Made by a program: the position numbers and the translations under genes. A stretch of DNA of 46,588 nt from Prolixibacteraceae bacterium (GTDB taxonomy: Bacteria; Bacteroidota; Bacteroidia; Bacteroidales; Prolixibacteraceae), in the NCBI GenBank assembly GCA_947475715.1, contig CANJNY010000024.1, positions 1 through 46,588 of the forward strand. Reading direction: 5' to 3'. Position 1 is the stretch's first letter; every line of letters begins with the position of its first letter. Of the stretch, positions 14,751 through 46,588 are shown in pieces. The notes below the pieces were generated by a model. That model did not search any database and was not told the DNA's origin. It saw nothing but the letters and a program-made list of their open reading frames with translations.

Positions 14751-14772
14751 GTTTAAGTGCCTTAAATATGGC

Positions 14773-15744: not shown

Positions 15745-15853
15745 AAGAAATCAGATTTTTTAGATTAAGAATTACAGCAAAAAAATTGAATAAATATCCT
15801 GCTGTTTTGCAGGAAGCAGATCCGGAAATGGATTATAGCGTTAAGTAATCACC

Positions 15854-15861
15854 CAAAGTTA
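15854..15861 (-). promoter_or_regulatory. -7 box for the sugar-binding lipoprotein gene
   Basis: On the minus strand the sequence is TAACTTTG, an exact TAnnTTTG match, about 110 bases before the start codon at 15744. No clear -33 box is present, and the leader would be unusually long. Confidence 0.3.
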
Positions 15862-15903
15862 CATAACAATTTGCATAAATAAATATTTTTTGTGATAATT
15901 CTT

Positions 15904-16554
15904 TTAAAATTCACCCCCATTCCATTCGGCATAAAACTGCTCAAGATAATCAAGCATGAATTGGTGCCTCTGGGCGGCATAAACTCGTCCCGTTGCTGTT
16001 TGCATCTGATCTTTTAATAATAATAGCTTTTCGTAGAAATGGTTAATTGTAGGCGCATCACCTTTTTGATAGGCATTGAAATTTTCGTGCATTATTGGCC
16101 CAATATTGGGATCATAAATGGCTCGTCCCCGGCTTCCTCCATAAGCAAAAGTTCTTGCAATACCAATTGCTCCTATTGCATCAAGCCTGTCAGCATCCTG
16201 TACGACCTTACATTCGGGATCAACAGTGGCCGTACTTACCAGAGCACCCTTATAACTTACTCCATCAATTACGGCACATATCCTTGCTGTTAATTCTTGA
16301 TCAACATTGCACTGAAGGAGCCACCCTTTCGCTTTTTGTTGGGAGATTGAATCCCCAATAAGTTTCCAATCGTCGATATCATGCAGTAAAGCCGCAAGCT
16401 CAACAATAAAAAGATCGGCACCCTCTGCTTTGCCAATCCGCATCGCCATTGTTCTTACACGCTCTATATGCCACCAATCATGTCCTGAGCCATCCCCCTC
16501 TAAAACCGACTTCACAAATATCTCGGCATCGCCTATGAGTTTTTTATTATCCAT
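15904..16554 (-). CDS. HD-domain phosphohydrolase (YedJ-like)
   Basis: The ATG at 16554 gives 216 residues starting MDNKKLIGDA. An ATG at 16596 would add 14 residues that look unlike the family. The metal site is complete: His25 and His29 (GHDWWHIERV), then HD at 58-59 (ALLHDIDDW) and the distal Asp in VQDADRLDAIGAIGIARTFA, the hallmark of this HD subfamily. These enzymes hydrolyse phosphate from nucleotides or related metabolites and the substrate is unknown. It is transcribed away from hydG, with which it shares a 200-bp intergenic region. Confidence 0.88.
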   Translation of the reverse strand: MDNKKLIGDAEIFVKSVLEGDGSGHDWWHIERVRTMAMRIGKAEGADLFIVELAALLHDIDDWKLIGDSISQQKAKGWLLQCNVDQELTARICAVIDGVSYKGALVSTATVDPECKVVQDADRLDAIGAIGIARTFAYGGSRGRAIYDPNIGPIMHENFNAYQKGDAPTINHFYEKLLLLKDQMQTATGRVYAAQRHQFMLDYLEQFYAEWNGGEF

Positions 16555-16704
16555 AATGATTTTAATTAAGCATTTAATAATTAAGCCTTTATTCACTATT
16601 TATCTCGTCGGTTCAGCACATCCAATACGATTTATAAGGCCCACCAAGATACAAAAAGGTTTTTCATGTTTTAAAGTTTCAGAACTCCGGGATTTAATGG
16701 TCTT

Positions 16705-16738
16705 TTTGAAGAAAGGGCTATATGAATGGTTATATTTG
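16705..16738 (+). promoter_or_regulatory. Bacteroidota promoter for hydG
   Basis: TTTG at 16705-16708, a 22-nt spacer and TATATTTG at 16731-16738. Transcription would start near 16745. That falls after the upstream ATG at 16722, so the functional start codon must be the ATG at 16758. Confidence 0.6.
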
Positions 16739-16757
16739 TATCATAATAGTTGCTGAG

Positions 16758-30890: not shown

Positions 30891-31577
30891 ATGAATATAC
30901 GGAGAAGCTTTTTACTGTGGTTAGCGTTTTTACCGCTGTTCGTTAATGGACAAACTCTCACAGGAATGAGTGGTTTGTTAAATATCCCGTCAGCCGATAT
31001 GCAGGCTGACGGGACGTTTATTTTAGGTGCAAACTACCTTCCCAGGATAAATCAGCCCGCTGATTTTAATTATAATACGGAAAACTATTTTTTCAATCTT
31101 ACCTTTTTACCTTTTCTGGAGGTCGCTTATAAATTGACCTTGATAAGGACGCCACAAAAAATTAATCAGGACCGAAGTGCCAGCTTTCGGCTACAATTAA
31201 TAAAGGAGAAAAGCTATCTTCCTTCGATTACAGTTGGAGTTCACGATTTTCATACCACCTCGGGTGGTGGAAATCAGTTCTTCGAAGCAAACTATATTGT
31301 CCTTACCAAACATTTTAAGATTCAGGAGAATGACATTGGGATCACTGCAGGTTATGGTACCAATATAATTATGAAAAACAGTCGTTTTATTGGCTTTTTT
31401 GGAGGAATGTCTGTTACACCAGGTTTCTGTAAACCACTTAAATTCATGGGTGAGTATGATTGCAATGGGGTGAATCTTGGCGGAAGTTTGCTTCTTTTTA
31501 AGCATCTCTACCTCTTTTCGATGGCTCAACATCTTCAGTATTTTGCCGGTGGTATGGCATACCGCATCTATCTGTGA
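30891..31577 (+). CDS. YjbH-type outer-membrane protein, N-terminal-half homologue
   Basis: The ATG at 30891 gives 228 residues. A TTG at 30876 would add five residues and is unlikely. After a signal peptide (to about residue 21, ...VNG), the mature protein starts TLTGMSGLLNIPSADMQADG. This GLLN-(I/M)P-(S/T)A segment followed by a barrel is how YjbH proteins begin. It has only the first barrel; the second-half homologue is encoded four genes earlier at 27627-28838, so one long YjbH seems to be split into two proteins. Its last 10 bases overlap the end of murQ on the other strand. Confidence 0.7.
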   Translation: MNIRRSFLLWLAFLPLFVNGQTLTGMSGLLNIPSADMQADGTFILGANYLPRINQPADFNYNTENYFFNLTFLPFLEVAYKLTLIRTPQKINQDRSASFRLQLIKEKSYLPSITVGVHDFHTTSGGGNQFFEANYIVLTKHFKIQENDIGITAGYGTNIIMKNSRFIGFFGGMSVTPGFCKPLKFMGEYDCNGVNLGGSLLLFKHLYLFSMAQHLQYFAGGMAYRIYL

Positions 31578-32395
31578 AAATGTTCTATCACTTTTTTTAC
31601 TGAACCATGGAGTAAAAGCTCTTTTCGTGCTTCATCTGACGAAATATGCAGTTCGTCAACAATCATTCGCGTTCCGCGTTCGATGAGTTTAACATTTGTG
31701 AGCTGCATATTTACCATTTTATTCCCTTTAACACGTCCCATTTTAATCATAAGTGTGGTGGTAATCATATTGAGAATCATCTTCTGTGCCGTTCCTGCCT
31801 TTAACCGGGTACTTCCGGTTACAAATTCCGGGCCTACTATGGCCTCAATAGGATATTCACTTACTTGTGCTATTTCACTTCCCGGATTGCAGGTTATGCA
31901 CCCTGTGAGAATTCCGTTTTCCCGGGCATGCTTAATTCCTCCAATCACATAAGGGGTTGTTCCGGATGCGGCAATACCTATTACAGCATCGTTTATGGTT
32001 ATTTTATAGCTTTCAAGCGACGCCCAGGCTTTATCCGGATCATCCTCCGCAGCTTCTACCGATTTGCGCAATGCCGTATCACCCCCAGCAATTAATCCAA
32101 CTACCAGACCTTCAGGAACTCCGAAGGTTGGTGGAACCTCAGACGCATCCAGAACTCCAAGCCGTCCACTGGTTCCGGCTCCCAGATAAAAAATCCTACC
32201 CCCCCCTTTCATTCTTATTTCAATCTGCTCGACTAACTTTTTGATCTGGGGCAACGCTTGTCTTACTGCTAAATGGACCTTTGAATCTTCTTCATTAAGG
32301 TTTGCCAGCAACTCTTCAACAGACATTTTGTCGAGGTTGTCGAAATTGGAGGAGGATTCTGTAATGCTTATTAACGAGGTGTGCTTTGGCTTCAT
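31568..32395 (-). CDS. murQ: N-acetylmuramic acid 6-phosphate etherase MurQ
   Basis: A 275-residue SIS-domain enzyme that splits MurNAc-6-phosphate into GlcNAc-6-phosphate and D-lactate in the cytosol. FYLGAGTSGRLGVLDASEVPP holds the sugar-phosphate site and the first catalytic glutamate (Glu86, equivalent to E. coli Glu83). KSVEAAEDD holds the second (Glu114). The central IAASGTTPYVIGGI SIS segment and the helical C-terminal subdomain are complete. It overlaps the upstream kinase gene by 4 bases (ATGA), which indicates translational coupling. Its 3' end overlaps the convergent YjbH-type gene by 10 bases. Confidence 0.96.
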   Translation of the reverse strand: MKPKHTSLISITESSSNFDNLDKMSVEELLANLNEEDSKVHLAVRQALPQIKKLVEQIEIRMKGGGRIFYLGAGTSGRLGVLDASEVPPTFGVPEGLVVGLIAGGDTALRKSVEAAEDDPDKAWASLESYKITINDAVIGIAASGTTPYVIGGIKHARENGILTGCITCNPGSEIAQVSEYPIEAIVGPEFVTGSTRLKAGTAQKMILNMITTTLMIKMGRVKGNKMVNMQLTNVKLIERGTRMIVDELHISSDEARKELLLHGSVKKVIEHFHR

Positions 32396-33252
32396 AAATA
32401 TGCCTGATGTTTTTGTAGATTATTTTGATGGTATGTTATTAATCCATTCATTGGAGCCTGATTTATTTCCCCTGCCTGGAGATTTTTTTCTGCAAGAGCT
32501 TTTCGGAGTTGTAATTCAAAATGAAAAGCGATACTTCCTGTGAAATTAATTGGTGTACACTCAATGGAAGGGTATTGCATTAAGTTTCTGGTAATGAACT
32601 CACCGAACGCGGAAATTACAATATGTTCTATTTCAGTTTTCTGGATGTTTTTGGAGAGAAATTTAGTGAATTGGGCAAGATATCTGTTTGGAAAAGGTCT
32701 TTTATAGACATTGTCGAGAATTTCAGCCGCTGTGATTGAATAAATTTCAAAAAAATCTGCTGTTATCTTTGGTGGAAGCTGTTTTTTCAAAATATCTCCC
32801 AAAAGTTTTTTCCCCAGAACGGCTCCGCTTCCTTCATCACCAAGGATAAATCCCAAAGGTGAAACCTGATCAACGATCCTCTCCCCATCGTAGAAGCATG
32901 AATTTGAACCTGTCCCTAATATGCATGCTATACCTGGTGTATTGCCACACAGTGAACGTGCGGCAGCCAGTAAATCGCTGCCAATATGAATGTTCCCGGA
33001 ATCAAAAAAATGAGATAAGGCAGACTTAACGATCTCCCCTTTTTCCTGATTCGTACACCCCGCACCATAAAAATAGATCGCATCAAATTTTCGGTGGAGG
33101 GAGGTAAATTCGAGTTTTAAATTACGGATAATATCTTCTGAATCCTGAAAGAATGGATTTATTCCAGATGTAAATAAGGGTTCACTAATACCTTTCTCAG
33201 AGAGAATTATCCATTCTGCTTTTGTACTTCCGCTATCCGAAATTAAAATCAT
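32392..33252 (-). CDS. murK: BadF/BadG-type amino-sugar kinase, probable MurNAc kinase MurK
   Basis: The 286-residue ASKHA-fold kinase shows phosphate-1 (DSGSTKAEW, residues 6-14), an aspartate-containing GSDLLAAAR segment likely to hold the catalytic base, phosphate-2 (GTGSNS, 113-118) and the GDEGSGAVLGKKLL adenosine-region motif. The family includes GlcNAc kinases and the MurNAc kinase MurK of Tannerella forsythia, which lies next to murQ as here. It should use ATP to make MurNAc-6-phosphate for MurQ. Assignment to MurK over GlcNAc kinase rests on gene order. It is the first gene of a divergent minus-strand unit facing the amidase gene. Confidence 0.82.
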   Translation of the reverse strand: MILISDSGSTKAEWIILSEKGISEPLFTSGINPFFQDSEDIIRNLKLEFTSLHRKFDAIYFYGAGCTNQEKGEIVKSALSHFFDSGNIHIGSDLLAAARSLCGNTPGIACILGTGSNSCFYDGERIVDQVSPLGFILGDEGSGAVLGKKLLGDILKKQLPPKITADFFEIYSITAAEILDNVYKRPFPNRYLAQFTKFLSKNIQKTEIEHIVISAFGEFITRNLMQYPSIECTPINFTGSIAFHFELQLRKALAEKNLQAGEINQAPMNGLITYHQNNLQKHQAYL

Positions 33253-33436
33253 TATCTCTTGTAATTATTTTGAATCGCCCTTTAAATTTGGTAATTTTAC
33301 TTTGTTTATTCTGATTATTATTGCTTCTAAATATCAGACAAAAATAGAATCGAAAACTAAATTTTTGTTGTTCTGATTGACCAATTTTTTTAGTAAAACA
33401 TGCCGTGCAAAAGTACTATTATTATAAAATTAATTC

Positions 33437-33444
33437 TAATTTTG
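33437..33444 (+). promoter_or_regulatory. -7 box upstream of the amidase-led operon
   Basis: TAATTTTG matches TAnnTTTG and lies 24 bases before the ATG at 33468. It falls inside a longer ORF from 33405, which supports the later start. No clear -33 box was seen. Confidence 0.4.
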
Positions 33445-33467
33445 GCCGCCATTATAATAAGATATTG

Positions 33468-36467
33468 ATGAATAGTTCTATTCGGTTTTTATGCTGTATC
33501 ATCCTTTTTGTTTTTTTTATTGCACCCTTTTCAGGTACCTCCCGGTCTATGAAAAAAACAACATTGAGTATTAAAGCCGAAAAGCGTATTCACAAACGTT
33601 CAAATCTCATGCCGGAGTGGCGTCATGTGGGTCATATTGTTCTCGATTCCCTAAATATTATTAATAATCAAGACCTTATCCAACTCTATTTTTCAACTCC
33701 CCTTTCATATATTCCTGTTAGAGAGTCGGAGGTTACATCCTTTGAACATTCAATCAGAAAGGCACTTGGCCGCAGATTTCATAATTATTCTATTTTAATT
33801 TATACCGATCACCATCTATTGAAGGAGTTGGTTCCTAATGCTATGAGAATATCCTTTGCATTGGATCAGAACAGGATGTCTACTCCTGTTCGTGAACGAA
33901 TACCTGTTGTGATGCAAATAGGAAAGGATAAACCGGGTTCAGGGCTTTTCAATAATAACATTGCCTTGTGGGATAGTCATGGGTGGTATTTTGATTCAAA
34001 ATCGGATCGTTGGAAGTGGCAGCGTGCACGTCTCTTCGGCACGGTTGAAGATATGTCTCCAATGAGTTATGTGCTGCCTTATCTTATTCCAATGCTCGAG
34101 AACAGCGGTGCTGCTGTTTTTATTCCAAGGGAGCGTGATTGGCAGTCTGAGGCGGTTTATGTTGACAATGACAGTTCATCGAAAGGTTCCCGATTAATCA
34201 TCCCGTCAGGTTTGATGTCAGATCGCAAAGAGGTTGGATTTATTTTAAAGGATAGTTTAAAATCAGGCGATAACCCTTTTTCTTTGGGATCTTCGTTACG
34301 TTTTATAAATCCAATAAAGGATCAGCAGGTTCAATTTGTACCTGACTTTGACATTAAGGGGCGCTACTCTGTTTCTGTCACTTACCAACACGATAGTACC
34401 GCTTTGTCGGATGTGATTTATACTGTGTATCATGCAGGTGGAGAAACAAAGTTTTCTGTAAATCAAAAAATTGGTGGTGGTACATGGATTTACCTTGGCA
34501 CTTTTGATTTTTTTGCCGGAATTAATCCTGAAAATGGAAAAGTTACCGTAAGTGCCGGAATAAATCATTTGGGCTCTTTTTCTGTAGATGCAGTTAAATT
34601 TGGTGGTGGAATGGGAAATGTGGCTCGTCGACCAACAGAGCTAACCTCTTCAGGGACCAAATTTTCATATAAACTTAGCGGCAAACCGAAATATCTGGAG
34701 GGTGCAAGATATTATTTGCAGAGTTCCGGATTCCCGGATACCCTTACTTATAGCCTGAACAAAGATAAAAATGATTATAACGATGATTATCAATCCAGAG
34801 GTGAATGGATTAATTATTTGATGGGTAGCCCTAATGGCCCGGATAAAAACCGAAATGTAACTGGAGTTAAGATTCCAATAGACCTTGGTCTTGCTTTTCA
34901 TACCGACGCGGGTATTACTCCAAATGATTCAATAATCGGAACGCTGGGGATTTACAGCACTAAGGGAGATATGGGTTTATTCCCTAATGGAAAATCGCGT
35001 TTGGCAAGCCGTGACCTTACTGATATTATTCAAACTCAGCTTGTCGTCGACATTCGTACCTTATTTAACCCAAACTGGACCAGGCGCGGACTTTGGGACA
35101 AGCCCTATTCCGAAGCGTGGCGCCCCAATGTTCCTGTAATGTTACTCGAGTTACTCTCTCATCAGAATATTGCTGATATGAGGTTAGGTTTGGATCCGCG
35201 TTTCCGGTTCTCAGTAAGCCGGGCTATTTATAAAGGGATGCTTAAATTTCAGGCATTCCAGGAAAATCGCCCCTTTGTCGTTCATCCATTACCGATCGAT
35301 CATTTTGTAATTACCCTTTTAGATTCAGATTCAGTCCGATTGTGTTGGAGTGGAGTATCCGATCCGCTGGAACCCACTGCCAAACCCGATAAATTTAGAA
35401 TCTACAGGCGAATCAATGATGGTGGTTTTGACAATGGATTTGTGACAAAGGATACAACAGTGGTTCTTAAACTGGATCGACACGACACGATATATAGTTT
35501 TAAAGTTGCGGCTAGTAATGAAGGAGGAGAGAGTTTTGCGGGAGAAATCCTTTCTGTTGGTATTAAAAGTCAAAGCAAGGGTGAAATATTAGTGGTTAAC
35601 GGATTTGATCGGATTTGCGGCCCTGCAATATTTGATAATTGTAATATGTCTGGATTAGCCAGGTGGAAAGATCAGGGTGTTGCTGATCATCAGGATATTA
35701 GCTTTGTTGGTGATCAGTATGATTTCGATCGCAAGTCAAAATGGCTTGACGATGATAGTCCGGGTTGGGGTGCCAGCTATGGAAACATGGAGGGAAAAGT
35801 AATTGCCGGAAATAGTTTTGATTACCCAATTATACATGGTAAAGCGATTTTGGCCGCAGGATATTCGTTTGTTTCTTCAAGTGATGAGGTTTTTTCCAGG
35901 GATGGTTTCGATATTTCACCTTACTTTGCAACCGATATTATTATGGGAGAAGAGCGATCTACCCCTGATCTGAAACAATCCGGCTTTAATGAGTTTAAAA
36001 TTTATACCCCCGGTCTGATGGCAAAAATTTCTCAAATATGTAAAAACAATGGGAATATTATTTTGTCAGGGGCTTATATCGGATCTGAATTTGGTGAAAG
36101 TAAAGATTCTGTAGCTGGTAATTTTGTGAAAAATATACTCCATTTTACCTGGCGTACTGGTCATGCTTCGAAGAGAGGAGCTTTTTATGCTACCGATTAT
36201 GTGAGTAATTGGTTTCATGGTAAGTGGAACTGGAATACCGATCTTAATGATAAAATCTATGCCTCCGAAGCACCCGATGGAATAGAGCCTTCGGGATCGA
36301 ATGCCTATACTGCCTTCAGATATGGTGAAAATAATATCAGTGCCGGGATTGTGTATAAAGGTAAGTATCGGATTGTTGCAATGGGGATTCCTTTTGAAAC
36401 GATTTGTGATCAGGTAGATAGCCGGATTCTTATGGAACAGATTACTCGCTTTTTTGAATTGAAATAA
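33468..36467 (+). CDS. Secreted Amidase_3-type protein with golvesin-C insert, FN3 and flavodoxin-like domains
   Basis: The start at 33468 gives 999 residues and a proper signal peptide (to about residue 27). An amidase_3-like domain appears in two parts. First comes ALWDSHGWYF with His171, GTVEDMSPM with Glu194 and FIPRERD. After a golvesin-C jelly roll (about 290-380) comes GLAFHTDAG with His478. These match the His, Glu and His zinc ligands of AmiA/B/C-type amidases, so the enzyme should remove stem peptides from peptidoglycan. A fibronectin type III-like domain follows (about 605-705), then an alpha/beta domain (about 706-999) of flavodoxin or class I amidotransferase appearance. Proteins of this architecture are often labelled xanthan lyase; I see no lyase motif. 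It leads the plus-strand peptidoglycan gene series. Confidence 0.75.
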   Translation: MNSSIRFLCCIILFVFFIAPFSGTSRSMKKTTLSIKAEKRIHKRSNLMPEWRHVGHIVLDSLNIINNQDLIQLYFSTPLSYIPVRESEVTSFEHSIRKALGRRFHNYSILIYTDHHLLKELVPNAMRISFALDQNRMSTPVRERIPVVMQIGKDKPGSGLFNNNIALWDSHGWYFDSKSDRWKWQRARLFGTVEDMSPMSYVLPYLIPMLENSGAAVFIPRERDWQSEAVYVDNDSSSKGSRLIIPSGLMSDRKEVGFILKDSLKSGDNPFSLGSSLRFINPIKDQQVQFVPDFDIKGRYSVSVTYQHDSTALSDVIYTVYHAGGETKFSVNQKIGGGTWIYLGTFDFFAGINPENGKVTVSAGINHLGSFSVDAVKFGGGMGNVARRPTELTSSGTKFSYKLSGKPKYLEGARYYLQSSGFPDTLTYSLNKDKNDYNDDYQSRGEWINYLMGSPNGPDKNRNVTGVKIPIDLGLAFHTDAGITPNDSIIGTLGIYSTKGDMGLFPNGKSRLASRDLTDIIQTQLVVDIRTLFNPNWTRRGLWDKPYSEAWRPNVPVMLLELLSHQNIADMRLGLDPRFRFSVSRAIYKGMLKFQAFQENRPFVVHPLPIDHFVITLLDSDSVRLCWSGVSDPLEPTAKPDKFRIYRRINDGGFDNGFVTKDTTVVLKLDRHDTIYSFKVAASNEGGESFAGEILSVGIKSQSKGEILVVNGFDRICGPAIFDNCNMSGLARWKDQGVADHQDISFVGDQYDFDRKSKWLDDDSPGWGASYGNMEGKVIAGNSFDYPIIHGKAILAAGYSFVSSSDEVFSRDGFDISPYFATDIIMGEERSTPDLKQSGFNEFKIYTPGLMAKISQICKNNGNIILSGAYIGSEFGESKDSVAGNFVKNILHFTWRTGHASKRGAFYATDYVSNWFHGKWNWNTDLNDKIYASEAPDGIEPSGSNAYTAFRYGENNISAGIVYKGKYRIVAMGIPFETICDQVDSRILMEQITRFFELK

Positions 36468-36484
36468 TTATTATACGAACAACA

Positions 36485-37954
36485 ATGCTTGATTTGATTA
36501 CTTGTATTCTTCCGGTAGACAGAGAGACTGAAATAGAAAAAACACTTAAAACGCTAAGAGCTTCAGGCTTAGTATCGCGGATTTTTCTTATTGGCGAGTC
36601 CGGATTAGTTTATAATTCAAAAGATATTAGTCATATAGCCAACGGCAATTTATTGTCAACTCAAACAATCAGGGAGGTGGCCTCCAAAATTACGACACGT
36701 TTCACCTTGATTTATACCAAAAGTCTTCCGCTTGATCTGGGTCAGAACGCGCTCTTTCGGATGATGCAGGTTTCTAAAGTCAGTGCTGCCGGGATGGTCT
36801 ATTCTGATTATTATGAGCATCAGAATGGGGTTGTTAAATCTCATCCTGTTATTGAATATCAGGATGGAAGCCTGCGGGATGATTTTGATTTTGGTTCTTT
36901 GATGTTATATCGAACAGAGGCTCTGGTATCTGCTTCCTTACGTATGGATCAGGATTTTGAATTTGCGGGATTGTACGATTTACGTTTGAAGGTTTCGCAG
37001 CGTGAAAAGCTGGTACATTTGCCTGAACTGCTTTATACTGAACTTGAACTGGATGGCCGAAAATCGGGAGAGAAATTATTTGATTATGTCGATCCTCGTA
37101 ACCGTGTAAAACAACTTGAAATGGAGCGGGCCTCCACTTTACATTTAAAAGCTGTAGCGGCCTGGCTTCCTCCAATATTCCGGGAAGTAATTTTTTCGAC
37201 AGAAGATTTGGAGCTGGAAGCTTCCGTTATAATCCCGGTCAGGAACCGGGTCAAAACAATTGCTGATGCGATTAAATCGGTATTAACTCAGGAGACTGAA
37301 TTTGATTTTAATCTTATTATTGTTGATAACCATTCCACGGATGGAACAACAGCCCTTATCCAATCTTTCGCTGAGTCGGATGATCGGATTATTCATGTAA
37401 TTCCCGGGCGGAAGGATCTGGGTATTGGTGGTTGCTGGAATGAGGCTGTAAACCATTCCCAATGCGGGAAGTTCGCTATTCAGCTCGATAGTGACGATTT
37501 ATATATCGATAATAAGGTAATCCAGAATATCGTTGATGCGTTTTACGAACAGAATTGTGCGATGGTAGTTGGATCTTACCAGATGGTGAATTTTAATCTG
37601 GAATCAATTCCTCCTGGCTTAATTGACCATAAAGAGTGGACTCCGGAAAACGGAAGGAATAATGCGTTAAGAATTAATGGATTGGGAGCTCCGCGTGCAT
37701 TTTATTCCCCTGTTTTAAGTGAGATTCAGGTTCCAAATGTCAGCTATGGCGAAGATTATGCGTTAGGCCTTGCAATTAGTCGCCATTATAAGATAGGAAG
37801 GATATATAATCCTTTGTACCTTTGTCGCCGTTGGGACGAAAACTCAGACTCTTCGCTTGATATTTCAACTATGAATAGTCATAATTTTTATAAGGATAAA
37901 ATACGGACACTGGAATTATGGGCACGTCAGCAGTTGGTTAAGGATGAACAATAA
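36485..37954 (+). CDS. Tandem GT-A glycosyltransferase-like protein (family 2)
   Basis: This 489-residue protein lacks a signal peptide or membrane helix. The second half is a family 2 glycosyltransferase: ASVIIPVRNRVKTIADAIKS (from about 246), VDNHSTDGT, FAIQLDSDDLYID with the metal-binding D-S-D near residue 335, and GEDYALGLAISRHY as the acceptor-side motif. The first half (1-235) starts LITCILPVDRETEIEKTL and ends in strand-helix patterns like a second GT-A fold without a clear D-x-D. It starts 17 bases after the amidase stop. A transferase in a recycling cluster is unexpected; it may build a glycan from recycled sugar nucleotides, or bind one. Confidence 0.85.
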   Translation: MLDLITCILPVDRETEIEKTLKTLRASGLVSRIFLIGESGLVYNSKDISHIANGNLLSTQTIREVASKITTRFTLIYTKSLPLDLGQNALFRMMQVSKVSAAGMVYSDYYEHQNGVVKSHPVIEYQDGSLRDDFDFGSLMLYRTEALVSASLRMDQDFEFAGLYDLRLKVSQREKLVHLPELLYTELELDGRKSGEKLFDYVDPRNRVKQLEMERASTLHLKAVAAWLPPIFREVIFSTEDLELEASVIIPVRNRVKTIADAIKSVLTQETEFDFNLIIVDNHSTDGTTALIQSFAESDDRIIHVIPGRKDLGIGGCWNEAVNHSQCGKFAIQLDSDDLYIDNKVIQNIVDAFYEQNCAMVVGSYQMVNFNLESIPPGLIDHKEWTPENGRNNALRINGLGAPRAFYSPVLSEIQVPNVSYGEDYALGLAISRHYKIGRIYNPLYLCRRWDENSDSSLDISTMNSHNFYKDKIRTLELWARQQLVKDEQ

Positions 37955-38003
37955 ACATCTTTCAGCAATATTTTTAATATAAAGTAAGTAGATAAACGTT
38001 AAA

Positions 38004-38936
38004 ATGGATTTTTCAGAAAAAGCGAGAGCATTAGTTCAGGAACAGATCCTGGAATGGGATTTGGTAGGTAAGAACTATGAAGGGTTAAAGAACGTAAAGG
38101 TTAAAACTTTTGATTTTGGGGATTTTAATATTGATGTTCAGTATAATCCTGAGCGGATTGTCTCCTCTGTTGCCAAAGTCGATGAACAATCAATCAGTGA
38201 ACGTTCTTGTTTTCTATGCAAGGATAATTTACCTTCCCTTCAACGTTGGATCCCATATGGTATTCATTATGCTATTTTGGTGAATCCGTTCCCGATCTTC
38301 CCGGAGCATTTGACTATTGCCAATGTTAATCATGTAAATCAGCGCATTTTTGATAATTTTGAAACCATGCTCGATCTGGCTTCTCATTTAAGTAAGTTTG
38401 TAATTTACTACAATGGACCGGCGTGTGGGGCATCTGCACCTGATCATCTTCATTTTCAGGCTGGTATTAAGGGATTTATCCCTGTTGAAAATGATTTCTC
38501 GAGCGAAATATGTTGCCGCGAGGTACGTACAATTGACGAAGTGAAAGTGTCTCACTGGCCTGAGTATCAACGTGGAATAATTACACTTACCAGTAATAAT
38601 AAATCTGAGCTGATCGGAGTTTTTAATAAGATCTATTATCAATTGCAAAATTTCCGACATGATGAACCGGAACCAATGCTTAATATAATTGCTGCTTTTG
38701 ATCGCAAAACGTGGACTATTCATATTTTCCCAAGAACAGAGCATCGTCCAAAACAATTTTATAATTCGGGAGTTAATCAAATCCTATTGAGCCCTGCATC
38801 CGTTGATATGGGTGGTTTACTGGTTACACCCCGTGAGGAGGACTTTCTGAAAATTACAGAAGAAGATGTAATCGATATTTTCGAGCAGGTTTGTTTCGAT
38901 ACCCAGTCGGTTCTGACACTTATCAATAAATTATAA
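38004..38936 (+). CDS. DUF4922 protein with GalT/HIT-like nucleotidyltransferase motifs
   Basis: A soluble 310-residue protein. ERSCFLCKDN has a C-x2-C pair at 69 and 72, where GalT-type uridylyltransferases hold their zinc (CFLC there as well). CGASAPDHLHFQ has a GAS-x-P segment followed by the H-x-H-x-Q motif (His148, His150, Gln152) that carries the nucleophilic histidine of GalT and Ap4A phosphorylase. VNPFPIFPEHLTI (93-105) is the typical strand before it. I infer a nucleotidyltransferase or phosphorylase acting on a sugar-1-phosphate or nucleotide sugar. DUF4922 has no assigned function that I know of. Its neighbours suggest an amino-sugar substrate. Confidence 0.75.
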   Translation: MDFSEKARALVQEQILEWDLVGKNYEGLKNVKVKTFDFGDFNIDVQYNPERIVSSVAKVDEQSISERSCFLCKDNLPSLQRWIPYGIHYAILVNPFPIFPEHLTIANVNHVNQRIFDNFETMLDLASHLSKFVIYYNGPACGASAPDHLHFQAGIKGFIPVENDFSSEICCREVRTIDEVKVSHWPEYQRGIITLTSNNKSELIGVFNKIYYQLQNFRHDEPEPMLNIIAAFDRKTWTIHIFPRTEHRPKQFYNSGVNQILLSPASVDMGGLLVTPREEDFLKITEEDVIDIFEQVCFDTQSVLTLINKL

Positions 38937-38972
38937 AATAGGTATACTGGCATATAATGAAATCAATGACCC

Positions 38973-40307
38973 ATGGATATTCCCGTTATTAAGGTTGGAA
39001 TAATTGCGGATTACGAAATCTCATTTACGCTTCAGGGAGAATATCTGATTGAGCAATTAGATCTTGTTCTAATCGGATCTATACGGGTCAGAATTCAGGA
39101 AGCTGCTATCTGCATCGGGTATGGCAATCAAAGTTTGATTTGTCCTGGTCAGATTAATATTCTCCCTGTGGATCCTCAAACGGCAACCTTTCTGCTTTCA
39201 AAGGTAACCATAGGGGTTGATTTTCACTGGGAGCGACAGGAGGATCAGATTTTCAAGGGTGCGCTATCCCTTATCCTTATTCACGATAAGATTCAGGTTA
39301 TTAATATTATCAATGTAGAAGATTATTTGCTAAGTGTGATATCCTCTGAAATGAGTGCCACTTCGTCATTGGAATTTCTTAAAGCTCATGCGGTAATATC
39401 CCGAAGTTGGCTTCTGGCACAACTTCAGAAAAATAAAATATTGCAACAGGGAAATCAACAATACCAGGCATCCAGTAGTACTGAAGATGAATTAATCCGA
39501 TGGTATGACCGTGAGGATCATCTCCATTTTGATGTTTGCGCCGACGATCATTGTCAACGATATCAGGGAATAACCCGATCTGTAAATCCTCAGATTAATG
39601 AGGCTGTCCTTAACACCCGCGGAGAGGTACTTACCTATGATGGTTTGATCTGTGATGCCCGGTTTTCGAAATGCTGCGGGGGGATCACAGAAACCTTTGA
39701 AAATGTCTGGGAGCCTGTTCACCATCCCTATTTGCAAAAGATTATTGATCACGACTTTGAAAAGGAAGAATTTAATACAGATCTTCGGCGCGAGGAAGAA
39801 GCGGTTTCATGGATCATGGGAAAACCCGATGTTTTTTGCAATACATCAGATAAAAAAGTCCTTCAACAGGTTTTAAATGAATACGATCAGGAAACGAATG
39901 ATTTTTTTCGCTGGAAAGTTATTTACTCGCAAACTGAATTGAGTGAATTAGTTAAATCCCGAACTGGAATCGATTTTGGGACCATTAACGATCTAATCCC
40001 AGTTGAAAGAGGCGTCTCAGGGAGGCTTTTAAAATTAAAAATTGTTGGTACATTACGTACAATGACTATCGGAAAAGAGTTGGAAATCCGGAAATCATTA
40101 TCTAAATCCCATCTTTTAAGTTCTGCATTTACACTTACCAAACAGCAAAATTTAAATAATGTGAATTTTATTCTTCATGGAGCCGGATGGGGACATGGTG
40201 TGGGTCTATGCCAAATCGGGGCAGCAGTTATGGGCGACCAGGGGTATCGTTATCCGGAGATCCTAACCCATTATTTCAGCGGGGCAGAATCAGAAAGAAT
40301 CTATTGA
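38973..40307 (+). CDS. SpoIID/LytB-type lytic transglycosylase without signal peptide
   Basis: The 444-residue protein shows NVEDYLLSVISSEM with Glu126 in the position of the SpoIID catalytic glutamate, FLKAHAVISRSWLLA, a CCGGITETFENVW segment (SpoIID cysteine and G-G-x-T motif) and GAGWGHGVGLCQIGA near the C-terminus. SpoIID cuts glycan strands that lack stem peptides. There is no signal peptide: the ATG at 38973 follows an in-frame stop (38967-38969), so no longer N-terminus exists. The enzyme therefore appears cytoplasmic, unlike sporulation SpoIID. It lies 37 bases after the DUF4922 gene. Sporulation is not implied in this phylum. Confidence 0.85.
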   Translation: MDIPVIKVGIIADYEISFTLQGEYLIEQLDLVLIGSIRVRIQEAAICIGYGNQSLICPGQINILPVDPQTATFLLSKVTIGVDFHWERQEDQIFKGALSLILIHDKIQVINIINVEDYLLSVISSEMSATSSLEFLKAHAVISRSWLLAQLQKNKILQQGNQQYQASSSTEDELIRWYDREDHLHFDVCADDHCQRYQGITRSVNPQINEAVLNTRGEVLTYDGLICDARFSKCCGGITETFENVWEPVHHPYLQKIIDHDFEKEEFNTDLRREEEAVSWIMGKPDVFCNTSDKKVLQQVLNEYDQETNDFFRWKVIYSQTELSELVKSRTGIDFGTINDLIPVERGVSGRLLKLKIVGTLRTMTIGKELEIRKSLSKSHLLSSAFTLTKQQNLNNVNFILHGAGWGHGVGLCQIGAAVMGDQGYRYPEILTHYFSGAESERIY

Positions 40308-40387
40308 ATTTTAACGATACGACAGCCTTTTAGACCGTCTTTAGTTATCTATTGATCTAATTCCAAGTAATTTAAATCAAGTAAAAA

Positions 40388-42859
40388 ATGTTTGTTCGAA
40401 TTTTATTTATAGCATTTTTATTAGTCGCATTTTTTGAATCTGATGGATCCTCCTGGATAAGAATTAATCAGTTGGGGTATCTTCCCCATTCGGTTAAGGT
40501 GGCTGTTTTTATTGCAGATGAAAAGATGCAATTGCCAAATTTTGAGTTGATTGAAGCACAATCCGGCAAAAAAGTTTTTGAAAATATTTCTGTTCAATAT
40601 AGTGGAGCAAAGTGGGGAATGGCTTGTGCTGCACGCCTTAATTTTTCCGCTTTTTCTACACCGGGTCGTTATTTCCTAAAGGTTGGCAATTCGAATTCAC
40701 CCCAATTTTCTATTTCATCCGATGTCTATCAGGGGACAGCCGATTATACCCTTAACTATATGAGGCAGCAACGTTGTGGTTATAATCCCTGGTTAAAGGA
40801 TTCGTGCCATACACACGACGGCTTTATTGTCGATCATCCTACGCGAACAGGCCAGATTATTGACGTCAAAGGGGGGTGGCACGACGCTACTGATTACCTT
40901 CAATATGTAACTACTTCGGCTAATGCAGTATATCAGATGCTGTTTGGATATCTGAAAAATCCAGAAGTATTTGGTGATCAGTATGATAGTTCCGGCCTGC
41001 GAGGGTCTGACGGCATACCTGATGTTCTAAATGAGATTCGCTGGGGTTTGGATTGGCTGGTTAAAATGAACCCTGATAGTACCGAGATGTATAATCAGAT
41101 TGCCGATGATCGTGATCACAAAGGTTTCAGGTTACCGAATAAGGATACAGCTTCGTATGGCAATGGATTATACCGTCCGGTATATTTTGTGACGGGGAAA
41201 GTTCAGGGTTTATCAAAATATAAAAACAGAACGACCGGTGTGTCATCTGCTGCGGGGAAGTTTAGTGCCGCTTTTGCGCTGGGAGCAAATATCTTTTCAA
41301 AAACTGATTCTGCCTATAGCTGGTTTCTAACTAATAAAGCCCGTCAGGCTTATGCTTTCGGCCTTTCAGATCTCGGTGTTACTCAAACTGCCTGTACCGT
41401 TTCTCCCTATTTTTATGAGGAGGATAATTATGTGGATGATCTGGAACTGGCGGCCACTGAGCTTTTCCGGTTAACCAATGACAAATATTATCAGCGGCAA
41501 GCAGATTACTGGGGGCAGCTTGAACCGATTACCCCCTGGATGGAACGGGGAACAGCACGTCACTATCAGTTTTATCCTTTTATAAATATGGGGCATGCCA
41601 ATCAGGCAATTGGAAGCGATAACGAATCAACGAAATATGCCGGATTTATGAATTCGGGGTTGAAAGTGATCGCCCAACGGGGAAATAATGATCCCTTTCT
41701 AAATGGTATTCCATATATCTGGTGTTCGAATAATTTGACTGTGGCAGCAATTACCCAGGCCAGGCTCTATTTTGAAGCGACTTCTGATTCAACCTACATC
41801 GAAATGGAAAGTGCGCTACGGGATTGGCTGTTCGGTTGTAATCCCTGGGGAACCAGTATGGTTTGTGGGTTACCTGCTGCAGGTGTTTATCCCCATTGGC
41901 CCCACTCCTCAATCACCTGGCTAAAGGATGAACCAACTTATGGCGGTTTGGTTGATGGTCCGGTTTACCGTGAGATTTTTAATAATCATATTGAAGTTAA
42001 ATTATATAAGCCGGATGAATTTTCCCCTTTTCAGCATGGTATTGCGGTTTACCATGATGATATGGGAGATTATACTTCAAATGAGCCCACAATGGATGGA
42101 ACGGCAAGTCTGAGTTTCTACCTCTCTTCTCTTGAAAAGGAGGGGCTTCGACAGCTCAAAATGGAGAATTCTACCATTGATAAGCAGGGAGCACTTGTCA
42201 GGTTTGATAAAAACCGGAAAACTGTTTATCTGATTTTCTCAGCCGATGAATATGGTGAAGGAGCCAGTCATATTTTATCAACTCTTAATCGGGAAAAAAT
42301 AAAAGGTTCCTTTTTTCTTACGGGTAATTTTTTGAGAAATCCAAGGTTTGAGAAGGTTATAAAACAGATGATTAATGGTAAGCATTATGTGGGACCCCAT
42401 TCTGACAGTCATTTATTGTATGCACCCTGGGAGAATCAAGACTCCCTTTTGATTACACGGGATCAATTTGATGTTGATATGACTGGGAATTTGAATGAAT
42501 TTCTAAAATTTGGGATAGATCTGAATAAGATTAACTATTTCCTTCCTCCTTATGAATGGTATAATTCGATAATCAGCAGGTGGAGTTGTGATCGTAAGAT
42601 GCAATTGATTAATTTCACCCCGGGAGTTGGCACAAATAGTGACTATACTACGCCGGAGATGCCCAAATACAAATCTTCGAAGATTCTGACCGAACAACTG
42701 CTTCAATTTGAAATGGTTAATCAGGACCACCTGAATGGGGCAATTATTTTGATCCATTTAGGAACACATCCCGACCGAATTGATAAATTTTACGGCTCAC
42801 TGGACAAAATTATTGAAATGCTCAAACGTAAAGGGTATTCGTTTGATAAGTTGCCTTGA
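40388..42859 (+). CDS. GH9 glycoside hydrolase fused to a polysaccharide deacetylase domain
   Basis: The 823-residue secreted protein has a signal peptide (to about residue 19), an Ig-like cellulase N-domain (about 22-110), a GH9 (alpha/alpha)6 barrel (about 115-580) and a NodB-like domain (about 605-823). GH9 residues are intact: GGWHDATDY with Asp166 and Asp169, and SNEPTMDGTA with Glu566 as acid. The NodB domain has FSADE with the metal aspartate, HSDSH (671-675) and ILIHLGT. FLPPYEWYN lacks the usual Arg before the PPY. GH9 includes exo-beta-glucosaminidases as well as cellulases. Deacetylation followed by glucosaminide cleavage on a peptidoglycan or chitin-like glycan would explain the fusion. 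Activity is inferred. Confidence 0.85.
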   Translation: MFVRILFIAFLLVAFFESDGSSWIRINQLGYLPHSVKVAVFIADEKMQLPNFELIEAQSGKKVFENISVQYSGAKWGMACAARLNFSAFSTPGRYFLKVGNSNSPQFSISSDVYQGTADYTLNYMRQQRCGYNPWLKDSCHTHDGFIVDHPTRTGQIIDVKGGWHDATDYLQYVTTSANAVYQMLFGYLKNPEVFGDQYDSSGLRGSDGIPDVLNEIRWGLDWLVKMNPDSTEMYNQIADDRDHKGFRLPNKDTASYGNGLYRPVYFVTGKVQGLSKYKNRTTGVSSAAGKFSAAFALGANIFSKTDSAYSWFLTNKARQAYAFGLSDLGVTQTACTVSPYFYEEDNYVDDLELAATELFRLTNDKYYQRQADYWGQLEPITPWMERGTARHYQFYPFINMGHANQAIGSDNESTKYAGFMNSGLKVIAQRGNNDPFLNGIPYIWCSNNLTVAAITQARLYFEATSDSTYIEMESALRDWLFGCNPWGTSMVCGLPAAGVYPHWPHSSITWLKDEPTYGGLVDGPVYREIFNNHIEVKLYKPDEFSPFQHGIAVYHDDMGDYTSNEPTMDGTASLSFYLSSLEKEGLRQLKMENSTIDKQGALVRFDKNRKTVYLIFSADEYGEGASHILSTLNREKIKGSFFLTGNFLRNPRFEKVIKQMINGKHYVGPHSDSHLLYAPWENQDSLLITRDQFDVDMTGNLNEFLKFGIDLNKINYFLPPYEWYNSIISRWSCDRKMQLINFTPGVGTNSDYTTPEMPKYKSSKILTEQLLQFEMVNQDHLNGAIILIHLGTHPDRIDKFYGSLDKIIEMLKRKGYSFDKLP

Positions 42860-43039
42860 CAAATTAGCTTTATTTATAGGATTAATTCAAGTTTAGGAGT
42901 GATTTTTTAAACAATACGTCCAATTAATTCTTTATTAGAGTGAAATAGATTAAAGAAATTATCAAAAAATTAAATTAATTGCAATATTTGAATCAGATTA
43001 CCTGATAATTAAAATATTTAGCTTTCTAACTGACTACTT

Positions 43040-44917
43040 ATGATTAAAAACAGTCAACAGGGAAACCTTAAAAAACCCTGGACATGGATTCCTTCCCTGT
43101 ATTTTGCTCAGGGACTACCGTATGTGATTGCAATGACGGTGGTAGTTATCATGTATAAACGGTTGGGTATCTCAAATACAGATATCACGTTATATACCAG
43201 TTGGCTTTATTTACCCTGGGTAATTAAGCCTTTCTGGAGTCCGTTTGTTGATGTGCTTAAAACAAAACGATGGTGGATTATTACGATGCAACTTCTAATT
43301 GGGGCTGGCCTGGCCGGAGTTGGCTTTTTGATCCCCGCACCATTTTTCTTTCAGGCCACCCTTGCACTCCTTTGGCTTATTGCCTTCAGTTCGGCTACTC
43401 ATGATATTGCAGCAGACGGCTTTTATATGCTGGCTCTGGATAGTTCGCAGCAATCGTTCTTTGTCGGCATTCGCAGTACTTTTTACCGCCTGGCGATGAT
43501 TACCGGTCAAGGTTTGTTAATTATTATTGCCGGATCATTAGAAAGTCTTACCGGTTTGGAACCGGTGCATTTTTCGGTGCAATCATCAACATCACCCCAA
43601 ACGGAGATCATATTGCAACCGGATAATTCTATTTTATCTCAAAACAAGGAAATGGCCTTTGTCGCATTCCCTTCCAGGCTTGTCCTTAATACACAGAATA
43701 TAACCCCGGATTCGCTTAAGAGAATTAAAAATTTTGCGTTGGATGAGAATCGAAAAAATGGATTTATTGCTACTGAACAGACCAATGGAGTGCAAAGTGG
43801 TGTAAAAACAGATTCTTGGTGGACTAAATTTATTTCATCCCCATTGGGTAATTTCATTAAGGATCATTTTGGTAAACCAAATACGGATAAGATAGGACTC
43901 AACGGGAGGGTAGGCAATGCCGGAATCGTTACTGTCCGACTGAACAGACAACCCGGACAAGGAGAAACAGTGGTGCTAAATTCGCATTTAAGTGAAGGAG
44001 ACAAGAGCATTTCAATAATTTCGGGTGATCGGTTGGTTTTTACATCAGAAAATTGGGATAAACCGGCGTACCAGGTTGTGCAACTGGACTATAAACTTAA
44101 AGAGCAGGTTAGTTCAGAATTCCGCGGAATTTCTGGTAATTTAAGGCTTGCATGGAGTATTACGTTTTTTATTTTGGCCGGATTTTTTCTGTTGATTTTT
44201 ATTTATCACCGTTTTGCCTTGCCTCATCCATCAGGGGATCATCCTTCCGAAACACATTCTGCAGGTGATGTTTTTCGCGAATTTGGAGCTGCATTTGCCT
44301 CCTTTTTTCAAAAAGAAGGAGCAGGGATAGCTATTGCATTTTTGTTACTTTACCGTTTGGGTGAAGCAATGCTTGTAAAAATGGCCCCGCCCTTTCTTCT
44401 GGATGCACGCGAACTGGGTGGATTGGGACTTACAACAGGACAAGTAGGATGGGTTTATGGAACGGTGGGGGTGATTTCACTCACGATTGGAGGTATAATC
44501 GGAGGTATAGCAGCCTCACGGAAAGGATTGAAATTTTGGATCTGGCCAATGGCTTTATGCATAACGTTACCGCATATTTCCTATTTGTATTTATCCTGGT
44601 TTACCCCTGAAAGTTTGATTCTTGTCAATATCGCAGTGGCTGTGGAACTCTTTGGTTATGGGTTTGGTTTTACAGCATTCATGCTTTATATGATCTATTT
44701 TGCCGATGGAAATCATAAAACTGCCCATTATGCTATTTGCACCGGATTTATGGCCCTTGGGATGATGCTTCCCGGTATGGTGGCTGGCTGGCTTCAGGAT
44801 CTTCTGGGGTATAACCATTTCTTTATTTGGATATTGATATGTGCAATACCAACTCTGGCTCTTATTCCATTTTTAAAGATTGACAAAGATTATGGCATAA
44901 AAAAAGGGGATAGTTGA
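43040..44917 (+). CDS. AmpG-like MFS permease with a large periplasmic insert
   Basis: A 625-residue MFS protein, well above the 430-490 of AmpG. The opening SLYFAQGLPYVIAMTVVVIMYKRLG and LPWVIKPFWSPFVDV fit the AmpG/acetyl-CoA transporter branch, which imports muropeptides or anhydro-disaccharides. Between membrane helices 5 and 6, residues about 171-368 form a soluble insert with strands such as ISGDRLVFTSENWDKPAYQV, resembling a beta-sandwich. If the N-terminus is cytoplasmic, this loop faces the periplasm and could pre-bind the sugar. It follows the GH9-deacetylase gene by 180 bases and has murK/murQ in the same locus, fitting import of amino-sugar fragments. Confidence 0.82.
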   Translation: MIKNSQQGNLKKPWTWIPSLYFAQGLPYVIAMTVVVIMYKRLGISNTDITLYTSWLYLPWVIKPFWSPFVDVLKTKRWWIITMQLLIGAGLAGVGFLIPAPFFFQATLALLWLIAFSSATHDIAADGFYMLALDSSQQSFFVGIRSTFYRLAMITGQGLLIIIAGSLESLTGLEPVHFSVQSSTSPQTEIILQPDNSILSQNKEMAFVAFPSRLVLNTQNITPDSLKRIKNFALDENRKNGFIATEQTNGVQSGVKTDSWWTKFISSPLGNFIKDHFGKPNTDKIGLNGRVGNAGIVTVRLNRQPGQGETVVLNSHLSEGDKSISIISGDRLVFTSENWDKPAYQVVQLDYKLKEQVSSEFRGISGNLRLAWSITFFILAGFFLLIFIYHRFALPHPSGDHPSETHSAGDVFREFGAAFASFFQKEGAGIAIAFLLLYRLGEAMLVKMAPPFLLDARELGGLGLTTGQVGWVYGTVGVISLTIGGIIGGIAASRKGLKFWIWPMALCITLPHISYLYLSWFTPESLILVNIAVAVELFGYGFGFTAFMLYMIYFADGNHKTAHYAICTGFMALGMMLPGMVAGWLQDLLGYNHFFIWILICAIPTLALIPFLKIDKDYGIKKGDS

Positions 44918-45110
44918 CCTCGTGATTTTGGGCTGGGAGGCTTTTTAGGACAAAAATTAAGGTTGAGAAATGTCAGCCAAAGATTTAATTTTAACGATTT
45001 TATAGCTGAATATTGATAGTCGTTGCGTCTTCTGTGTCAAATGACCAATTGGTTAGTCTGCAGCTTCTGGGAAATTAAAATTTATTCGTTTAAATTGACA
45101 ATTTAATAAG

Positions 45111-46588
45111 ATGAAAAAACTGATTTTATTAACTTTTTTATTGCTGTTTGGAATTAATTTAATGGCCTCAAAATTTCCAAAGCGGGAGATGAGAGCTGTA
45201 TGGATCGCGACGATAGCCAATATTGACTGGCCATCATCCTCAAACCTTACATCAGATCAGCAAAAAAAGGAATTTATTGAATTACTCGATCTGGTCAAAG
45301 CGTATAATATGAATACGGTTATATTTCAAATCAGACCAGCCTCAGACGCGTTTTATGCTTCTGATATTGAGCCATGGTCGCAGTGGTTGACAGGAAAGCA
45401 GGGAAAACGTCCCGATCCCTTTTATGATCCATTGGATTTTGCGGTTGTTGAATGTCATAAACGGGGGATCGATCTTCATGTTTGGCTTAATCCTTATCGG
45501 GCCATTTCGGATGTGAATGTCAATAAAAGTTCTTCTGAACATATCTCCAATACCCATCCTGAGTGGTTTATCACCTACGGAAAAACAAAATTATTTGATC
45601 CCGGATTACCACAAACCAGAAATTATGTGGCAAAAATCGTAAGTGATATTGTGCGCAGGTATGATATAGACGCAATTCATATGGATGATTATTTTTATCC
45701 ATATCGCATTTCCGGGGTGACCTTCCCTGATGATAAAACGTTTAGTGATTATCCCGGAAATTTTCATGCAAATGAAAAAGAGGATTGGAGAAGGAATAAT
45801 GTCGATCTAATCGTAAAGCAACTGCATGATAGCATAAAATCGATTAAACCATGGGTTGAATTTGGAATCTCTCCCTTTGGAGTATGGCGTAATATCCAAA
45901 AGGATCCTTTAGGTTCGAACACCAAAGCAGGGCAAACTAATTACGATGATCTCTATGCCGATATTCTGAAATGGGAATATAATCAATGGATCGATTATGT
46001 TGTGCCGCAGGTATATTGGGAGATAGGAAAAGAAATTGCTGATTATCAGATTATCGCCGATTGGTGGAGTCATCATTCATACGGAACCCAGCTCTTTATC
46101 GGGCACGGATTATATAAACTCGATGGTGAGGCAAAAGAAAAATCATGGCAAAGTGCTGATGAGATAATAAATCAGATCAAATTAAACCGCAAGCTTAAAA
46201 CAATAACCGGAAGTGCTTTTTATAGTGTTAAGTTTCTTCGAAAAAACCCCCTTAATCTTCACGAAAAACTAGAGGATCAGTTATACCGGTATCCGGCTCT
46301 GGTTCCACTCAATGACCGGATTATGCCGGTTACTCCTTCGGATCCCATCAATGCACAAATGAGCATCGTGGATGGTCAGCTTCATTTTAACTGGGCTAAA
46401 GGGGCAAATACCAAATCATTTGCCATTTATCAGTTCACGAAATGGCAAAGAAAAAATATTAAAAACCCGGCCCGAATATTTCTCACTACAGCTAACAATT
46501 CGGTTAGCTATGTTCTGGATAATTCAACTGATCCCCGGCATTTCAGGTATGTGGTTACAGCTATCAGCCCAACAAACAGTGAAAGTCA
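45111..46588 (+). CDS. GHL10/DUF187 glycoside hydrolase, DigH-like (partial, runs off window)
   Basis: The ATG at 45111 opens a frame of 492 complete codons with no stop before the window ends. A signal peptide (to about residue 19) precedes KREMRAVWIATIANIDWPSS, the start of the GHL10 barrel. Barrel motifs follow: VIFQIRPASDAFY, IDLHVWLNPYR, IHMDDYFYPY near 189 with acidic residues, FGISPFGVWRN and YVVPQVYWEIG. From about 405 an FN3-like domain begins (NAQMSIVDGQLHFNWAKG). E. coli DigH, of this family, cleaves denuded peptidoglycan glycan. It follows the AmpG-like gene by 193 bases on the same strand. The C-terminus is unseen. Confidence 0.85.
   Translation, partial: MKKLILLTFLLLFGINLMASKFPKREMRAVWIATIANIDWPSSSNLTSDQQKKEFIELLDLVKAYNMNTVIFQIRPASDAFYASDIEPWSQWLTGKQGKRPDPFYDPLDFAVVECHKRGIDLHVWLNPYRAISDVNVNKSSSEHISNTHPEWFITYGKTKLFDPGLPQTRNYVAKIVSDIVRRYDIDAIHMDDYFYPYRISGVTFPDDKTFSDYPGNFHANEKEDWRRNNVDLIVKQLHDSIKSIKPWVEFGISPFGVWRNIQKDPLGSNTKAGQTNYDDLYADILKWEYNQWIDYVVPQVYWEIGKEIADYQIIADWWSHHSYGTQLFIGHGLYKLDGEAKEKSWQSADEIINQIKLNRKLKTITGSAFYSVKFLRKNPLNLHEKLEDQLYRYPALVPLNDRIMPVTPSDPINAQMSIVDGQLHFNWAKGANTKSFAIYQFTKWQRKNIKNPARIFLTTANNSVSYVLDNSTDPRHFRYVVTAISPTNSES

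Follow-up and report, generated by a model that had tools for sequence, protein, structure and literature searches.

The stretch of DNA analysed here (the window) is the 46,588-nucleotide contig CANJNY010000024.1 of a Prolixibacteraceae bacterium (assembly GCA_947475715.1). Between positions 31568 and 46588 it carries nine genes that form a variant of the ampG-murTKQ-type salvage cluster known from Tannerella forsythia. As a whole this cluster is not new; what is new, and open to test, is the co-inheritance of three of its genes, which encode a tandem GT2 protein (GT2t), a DUF4922 protein and a cytosolic SpoIID-domain protein, hereafter the trio. In the sample studied, genomes with the trio always encode the muropeptide importer AmpG, and among AmpG genomes AnmK is missing only where the trio occurs. 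We hold with moderate confidence that the cluster serves salvage as in T. forsythia and that the trio is one cytosolic module acting after AmpG, where it most likely processes imported disaccharides of N-acetylglucosamine (GlcNAc) and N-acetylmuramic acid (MurNAc) or its anhydro form, GlcNAc-(anhydro)MurNAc.

Co-inheritance of the trio and its association with AmpG and AnmK

The three trio genes were searched for in the same sample of 247 Bacteroidota genomes, which carry 44 family codes, at thresholds of E ≤ 1e-10 for DUF4922, E ≤ 1e-30 for SpoIID and E ≤ 1e-60 for GT2t. DUF4922 is present in 37 genomes and SpoIID and GT2t in 36 each; 35 genomes hold all three genes, two hold two of them (G223 is without SpoIID and G156 without GT2t), and the remaining 210 hold none. 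The 35 and the two together are the 37 trio genomes of all later counts; one of them, G188, has a SpoIID gene with an internal stop codon, which was scored as present. The trio occurs in 8 of the 44 family codes, within which genomes are not independent of each other. In the genomes that hold them the three genes are often unlinked, and they are co-inherited nonetheless.

The TIGR00901 model (E ≤ 1e-30) finds AmpG in 74 of the 247 genomes but misses it in 8 of the 37 trio genomes, and an alignment-based search (E ≤ 1e-60) was therefore used. This search places AmpG in 37/37 trio genomes versus 43/210 others (80/247 in all), an association that is significant by genome (Fisher's exact test, 6e-22) and at the family level (1.4e-4). 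Four of the matches in genomes without the trio (G210, G115, G039 and G228) belong to a long-branch clade of their own; every count includes them.

AnmK is the usual enzyme for 1,6-anhydro-MurNAc. We searched for it (E ≤ 1e-10) in the 80 AmpG genomes only, and it is present in all 43 that are without the trio versus 16 of the 37 that have it, so that 21 trio genomes are without AnmK (Fisher's exact test: 1.3e-9 by genome, 3.8e-5 by genus, 0.0015 by family). Absences are found in six of the eight trio families and in none of the ten others, with family f15 standing in both lists, and AnmK is present in other members of the families in which some trio genomes miss it. G223, which has DUF4922 and GT2t without SpoIID, retains AnmK. 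When AnmK is mapped on the AmpG gene tree, a quick tree with several long branches, 11 changes are needed, or 12 if losses are irreversible. Four Fitch reconstructions give seven to eight losses, all of them on trio branches; the chance of this, in an ad hoc calculation by branch length, is 0.0067 for 8 losses and 0.001 for 11.

A SpoIID protein without signal peptide

The SpoIID gene of the window (38973-40307, forward strand) matches PF08486 at 7.1e-25 and the solved SpoIID structure 4rwr at 2.7e-25. Its product resembles the SpoIID/LytB lytic transglycosylases of Bacillus subtilis and Waddlia in the domain itself, in a conserved glutamate column and in a C-terminal GWGHGVGxCQ-type motif. 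Unlike these enzymes it has no signal peptide, and so it departs from them in the export or membrane anchoring that is typical of the group. We compared 41 sequences of the cytosolic form, the window's included, with four secreted ones; the comparison excludes open reading frames (ORFs) of at most 400 residues (the two pieces of a broken copy, L068) as well as L084, which repeats L026. All 41 full-length sequences start at the same first strand, and in 36 of them a conserved proline, residue 4 of the window protein, follows just 4-8 residues in. The other five ORFs are longer; four of these have an internal methionine 4-6 residues before the proline, and L029 has none. In L062 the possible N-terminal extension scores as hydrophobic (2.23). 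The four secreted paralogues (L072-L075), whose genomes also carry the cytosolic form, have a hydrophobic leader before the same strand and the conserved proline after the signal peptide.

As 36 of the 41 sequences are too short at the N-terminus to hold a signal peptide, the window-type SpoIID is very probably cytosolic, as judged from start position and from hydropathy; the latter is a simple window score rather than a trained predictor, and its values for cytosolic and secreted forms overlap to some degree (up to 2.23, against 2.20-3.71). This contradicts the original prediction, made from the window's letters and ORFs, in which SpoIID acts outside the cell. The glutamate at position 126 is invariant in the 41 cytosolic and the four secreted sequences, in a column that aligns with the solved SpoIIDs, and we take it to be the equivalent of E88 in B. 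subtilis. E88 is described as essential in B. subtilis SpoIID (PMC6635528). Next to the glutamate the window protein reads SSEMSA, whereas the four secreted Bacteroidota paralogues read PYEIGG or PYEIGT, and 26 columns that are invariant in the cytosolic sequences differ in all four secreted ones. Among open PMC papers we found no published report of a cytosolic SpoIID; if the assignment is correct, an enzyme family that cleaves the wall may have been relocated to the cell interior. A separate observation concerns G188, in which the cytosolic SpoIID gene (L068, 7590-8915) is split by a single in-frame stop codon.

The GT2t and DUF4922 proteins

GT2t (36485-37954, forward strand) is probably cytosolic and matches Glycos_transf_2 at 1.3e-23 over residues 247-380. 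The DSDD, GED and RRW motifs of this C-terminal domain are invariant in 18 homologues; the N-terminal half gave no recognised domain in the Pfam scan and no DxD in the homologue alignment.

The DUF4922 protein (38004-38936, forward strand; PF16269, 8.5e-61) is probably cytosolic too. Its profile matches the yeast-type diadenosine tetraphosphate (Ap4A) phosphorylase 2 (4i5t) at 8.1e-6 and, weakly, galT models. C69, C72, H148 and H150 are invariant in 23 homologues and Q152 is nearly so, which gives the protein the HxHxQ and CxxC motifs of the HIT/GalT superfamily (Ap4A phosphorylase, GalT, guanosine diphosphate (GDP)-hexose phosphorylases). These matches, together with the invariant histidines and cysteines, make it very probable that DUF4922 is a HIT/GalT-type enzyme of nucleotidyl transfer or a phosphorylase. 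A low-confidence structure model (pLDDT 48, from 10 close sequences) has its best fold match in the DUF4931 protein 4qvu (Foldseek E 3.3e-4, weak). Some plant relatives of GDP-galactose phosphorylase are described under a DUF4922-superfamily label (PMC9871823, PMC11047344).

The two proteins are fused in genome G230, as a single ORF of 826 residues (L044, 8283-10763). G230 also encodes another GT2t, which stands alone and adjoins SpoIID and AmpG (L050). In four other loci (L026, L032, L039 and L041) DUF4922 is immediately preceded by a small ORF, of one family throughout, which stands between GT2t and DUF4922 where the locus is uncut; the L041 copy is a GNAT acetyltransferase by Pfam.

Genomic context of the trio

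The gene neighbourhood was counted at DUF4922 loci from 36 genomes beyond the window's close relatives, in stretches of up to 20 kb of which several are cut by contig ends; the second DUF4922 matches of G224 (L048) and G047 (L049) stand outside this count. GH9 and DigH are found at none of the 36 loci, MurQ and the amidase-like protein at one each, MurK at 8, AmpG at 11, SpoIID at 14 and GT2 at 27. The proposed co-occurrence of all families fails, then, beyond the window's close relatives, and on these counts we rejected the idea of a single eight-family operon to which the trio invariably belongs. In our sample the GH9-deacetylase is limited, among DUF4922 loci, to the window and L003-L007, and DigH to the window and L003-L011; both are local additions restricted to the window's close relatives.

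The trio or parts of it adjoin AmpG and MurK in loci of several families. L013, from genome G238, repeats the gene order of the window in a fuller cluster, with two NamZ genes, an SSF transporter, a metallophosphatase-propeller protein, an FAD/Fe-S (flavin adenine dinucleotide/iron-sulfur) dehydrogenase, a NagX-like acetyltransferase, MurK and a cut MurQ. In L071 an amidase-like gene and SpoIID lie at most 6 kb from AmpG-MurK.

Relation to known salvage systems

The T. forsythia operon Tanf_08345-Tanf_08385 is described as 'xanthan lyase', gtf, gtf, lytB, ampG, ybbC, murT, murK and murQ (PMC5388701, PMC7670621), and as a single transcript by reverse-transcription PCR (PMC5388701). The window likewise has AmpG, MurK and MurQ in one cluster, MurK and AmpG with scores below the curated cut-offs, and its order of amidase-like/Golvesin_C protein, GT2t, DUF4922, SpoIID, (GH9) and AmpG follows that of the published operon. 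We matched the two by order and annotation only; the position of the amidase-like gene corresponds to that of the 'xanthan lyase' gene, and the second gtf would correspond to DUF4922. The window cluster differs in having no NamZ and no MurT, in the added GH9-deacetylase and DigH, and in the divergent orientation of murKQ. The peptidoglycan-sugar salvage of the original prediction is well supported by gene content and by this published operon, while denuded glycan as its substrate is only inferred. GT2 and DUF4922, put forward there as the new parts, are indeed unexplained components, although the literature already contained such an operon, with two 'gtf' genes, from T. forsythia.

T. forsythia is reported to grow on GlcNAc-anhMurNAc(-peptides), and less well without ampG; the authors predict that it has no AnmK and leave its anhydro-MurNAc route open (PMC7670621). 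Compared with recycling of the E. coli type through AnmK and MurQ, the window system would share GlcNAc-anhMurNAc imported by AmpG as the source and MurQ as the end step; it differs in that 21 of the 37 trio genomes are without AnmK and in the MurK-type kinase of the window cluster.

Possible function of the trio and alternative explanations

From these observations we infer the following chemistry, roles and order of steps. The secreted amidase-like protein, DigH and the GH9-deacetylase would degrade wall material on the outer side of the inner membrane, the resulting disaccharides would enter through AmpG, and MurK and MurQ would turn MurNAc into GlcNAc-6P and D-lactate. GT2t, DUF4922 and the signal-less SpoIID would form one cytosolic module downstream of AmpG, in which SpoIID may act at C1 of MurNAc, with water or another acceptor opening the 1,6-anhydro ring, and DUF4922, as an enzyme of the nucleotidyl-transfer or phosphorylase type, and GT2 may handle an activated sugar. 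Most of the products that the Waddlia SpoIID homologue is reported to release from denuded glycan are non-anhydro (PMC6635528), which implies that the SpoIID fold can use water as acceptor. Given this, the growth of T. forsythia and the AnmK pattern, ring opening of GlcNAc-anhMurNAc by SpoIID is the most economical guess. More specifically, and only tentatively, the trio could be an AnmK-independent route for 1,6-anhydro-MurNAc, with SpoIID reversing lytic-transglycosylase chemistry or hydrolysing its substrate and with DUF4922 and GT2t coupling the opened sugar to nucleotide-sugar metabolism. We found no published report of an AnmK-independent route among open PMC papers. If true, such a route would account for the growth of T. 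forsythia on GlcNAc-anhMurNAc in the absence of AnmK, would turn the gap stated for that organism (PMC7670621) into a testable three-gene prediction, and would give a pathway to DUF4922 and the tandem GT2 across all the family codes in which they are found.

Several observations weigh against a role of the trio in anhydro-sugar salvage. The trio changes only four times on the AmpG tree, with one independent pair on well-supported branches, so that a phylogeny-corrected test (independent pairs or sign test) has no power, and the loss of AnmK in trio lineages may have other causes. The window's own genome retains AnmK as a separate gene on contig C54 (no cluster protein matches PF03702), and there the trio is therefore not a simple replacement of AnmK. 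G188 has neither an AnmK nor a MurQ match, and it is the genome with the interrupted SpoIID. MurQ is not associated with the trio (30/37 versus 148/210, p 0.13; 178/247 overall), nor is NamZ (36/37 versus 202/210; 238/247 overall); as NamZ is nearly universal and MurQ common, neither is informative as a trio partner. For T. forsythia, growth on lytic-transglycosylase digests is reported to reach an optical density of about 0.8 versus 1.3 on muramidase digests, and free anhMurNAc to be a poor source whose use is AmpG-independent (PMC7670621). As to gene neighbourhoods, the stretch fetched for the near relatives L008-L011 has DUF4922 beside DigH and MurK but contains no GT2t, SpoIID or AmpG. Families f17 and f35 mostly carry the trio apart from MurK-AmpG, with a GT4 glycosyltransferase adjoining SpoIID.

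The low number of trio changes also speaks for a first alternative, a clade effect in which related lineages lose AnmK, for example because they import GlcNAc-MurNAc that muramidases and NamZ produce, and in which the trio is unconnected with anhydro sugars. The near-universal NamZ fits this explanation, as does the report that AmpG of T. forsythia imports GlcNAc-MurNAc too (PMC7670621). However, AnmK is missing in most trio families though other members have it, the seven to eight reconstructed losses on trio branches are separate events, and T. forsythia uses GlcNAc-anhMurNAc without a predicted AnmK (PMC7670621). We regard a clade effect as possible but doubtful.

According to a second alternative, the trio is biosynthetic: GT2t, often with the GT4 enzyme, would build a cytosolic or lipid-linked glycan, DUF4922 would supply or recover the sugar nucleotide, SpoIID would trim the product, and the genes would lie near AmpG through the use of recycled wall sugars. 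The catalytic motifs of GT2 are kept in GT2t, and the T. forsythia operon has been termed glycosylation-related, after earlier work (PMC5388701). The GT4 protein has about 370 residues; its gene overlaps that of the cytosolic SpoIID, comes after it, or lies between SpoIID and GT2t (L055, 8070-10507; L020, 5342-8085). Pfam confirms it only in L020 (f35) and L055 (f17); L020 and four more f35 loci fall into one GT4 BLAST cluster, and other f17 loci have ORFs of like length. For a general biosynthetic function, however, the restriction to AmpG genomes and the absence of AnmK from trio genomes only are unexpected, and we think this explanation unlikely.

DigH is linked to denuded glycan in other bacteria. 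A periplasmic route as in the original prediction, with the amidase releasing peptide-free glycan on which SpoIID and DigH both act outside and with AmpG taking up what they produce, would agree with this, with the signal-peptide-like N-termini of DigH, the GH9-deacetylase and the amidase-like protein, and with the tie of SpoIID to denuded glycan in other organisms (PMC6635528), but it is very improbable, since most cytosolic-form SpoIIDs have no room for the signal peptide that the four secreted paralogues possess and since DigH and GH9 are missing from all 36 loci beyond the window's near relatives.

Other genes of the cluster

All nine ORFs are present in the ORF listing of the window, which is also what the analysis covered of positions 1-31567, and scans against Pfam and NCBIfam show that most of the nine had been named correctly. 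MurQ, the N-acetylmuramic acid 6-phosphate etherase (31568-32395, reverse strand), scores 312 bits with TIGR00274, above the cut-off of 302. It overlaps the gene of the MurK-like MurNAc kinase of the BadF/BcrA family (32392-33252, reverse strand), and both are divergent from the other cluster genes. The BadF match of the putative MurK is below threshold (24.5 bits, cut-off 31.5), and its identity rests on this match and on its position beside MurQ.

The secreted amidase-like protein of 1020 residues (33405-36467, forward strand, with a probable start at 33468) carries an inserted Golvesin_C domain, and in the Pfam scan it matches Golvesin_C only, with no amidase match. This Golvesin_C region has a match (9e-12) to a xanthan lyase of solved structure. 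A profile built from eight clear Amidase_3 domains only reaches relatives weakly among the searched ORFs (L013 at 6e-4, L071 at 0.0026, L007 at 0.0055; the window copy is not listed). With hhalign the match to Amidase_3 is weak, at E 1e-4 to 6e-4 and a probability of 29-55%, and four controls score no better than E 0.12; the match spans the C-terminal half of the relatives, over the expected histidine and glutamate. H171, E194, H478 and E561 (numbered from 33468) are invariant in 6 homologues. A structure model from 5 sequences is poor (pLDDT 33).

Like the amidase-like protein, the products of two further genes have hydrophobic, signal-peptide-like N-termini: a GH9 glycosidase fused to a CE4-like polysaccharide deacetylase (40388-42859, forward strand; PF00759 at 1.8e-68, PF02927 (CelD_N) and PF01522), and a GHL10/DigH-type glycosidase (45111-46586, forward strand; PF02638, 4.2e-75), whose 3' end is cut where the contig stops at 46588. 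Hydropathy is low in one amidase-like and one DigH-profile sequence, probably because these ORFs are cut. NamZ and SSF have no match among the cluster proteins in the Pfam scan, which ends with the contig inside DigH; NamZ of this genome is on another contig.

Between these two genes lies that of the AmpG-type muropeptide importer of the major facilitator superfamily (43040-44917, forward strand), a long form that matches TIGR00901 in two stretches (1.8e-53, below the cut-off of the model). An insert of about 190 residues (about 172-366) is common, in the alignment, to L003, L007, L030 and L050 and is not found in the seven short forms.

Genes for FAD/Fe-S proteins like D-2-hydroxyacid dehydrogenases occur in the L013 operon (14643-17510) and adjoin DUF4922 or GT2t in L021, L028, L031, L076, L080 and L081. 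The L013 and L021 copies, the only two scanned, have glcD and YdiJ as their best models, both below cut-off. These dehydrogenases could oxidise the D-lactate released by MurQ.

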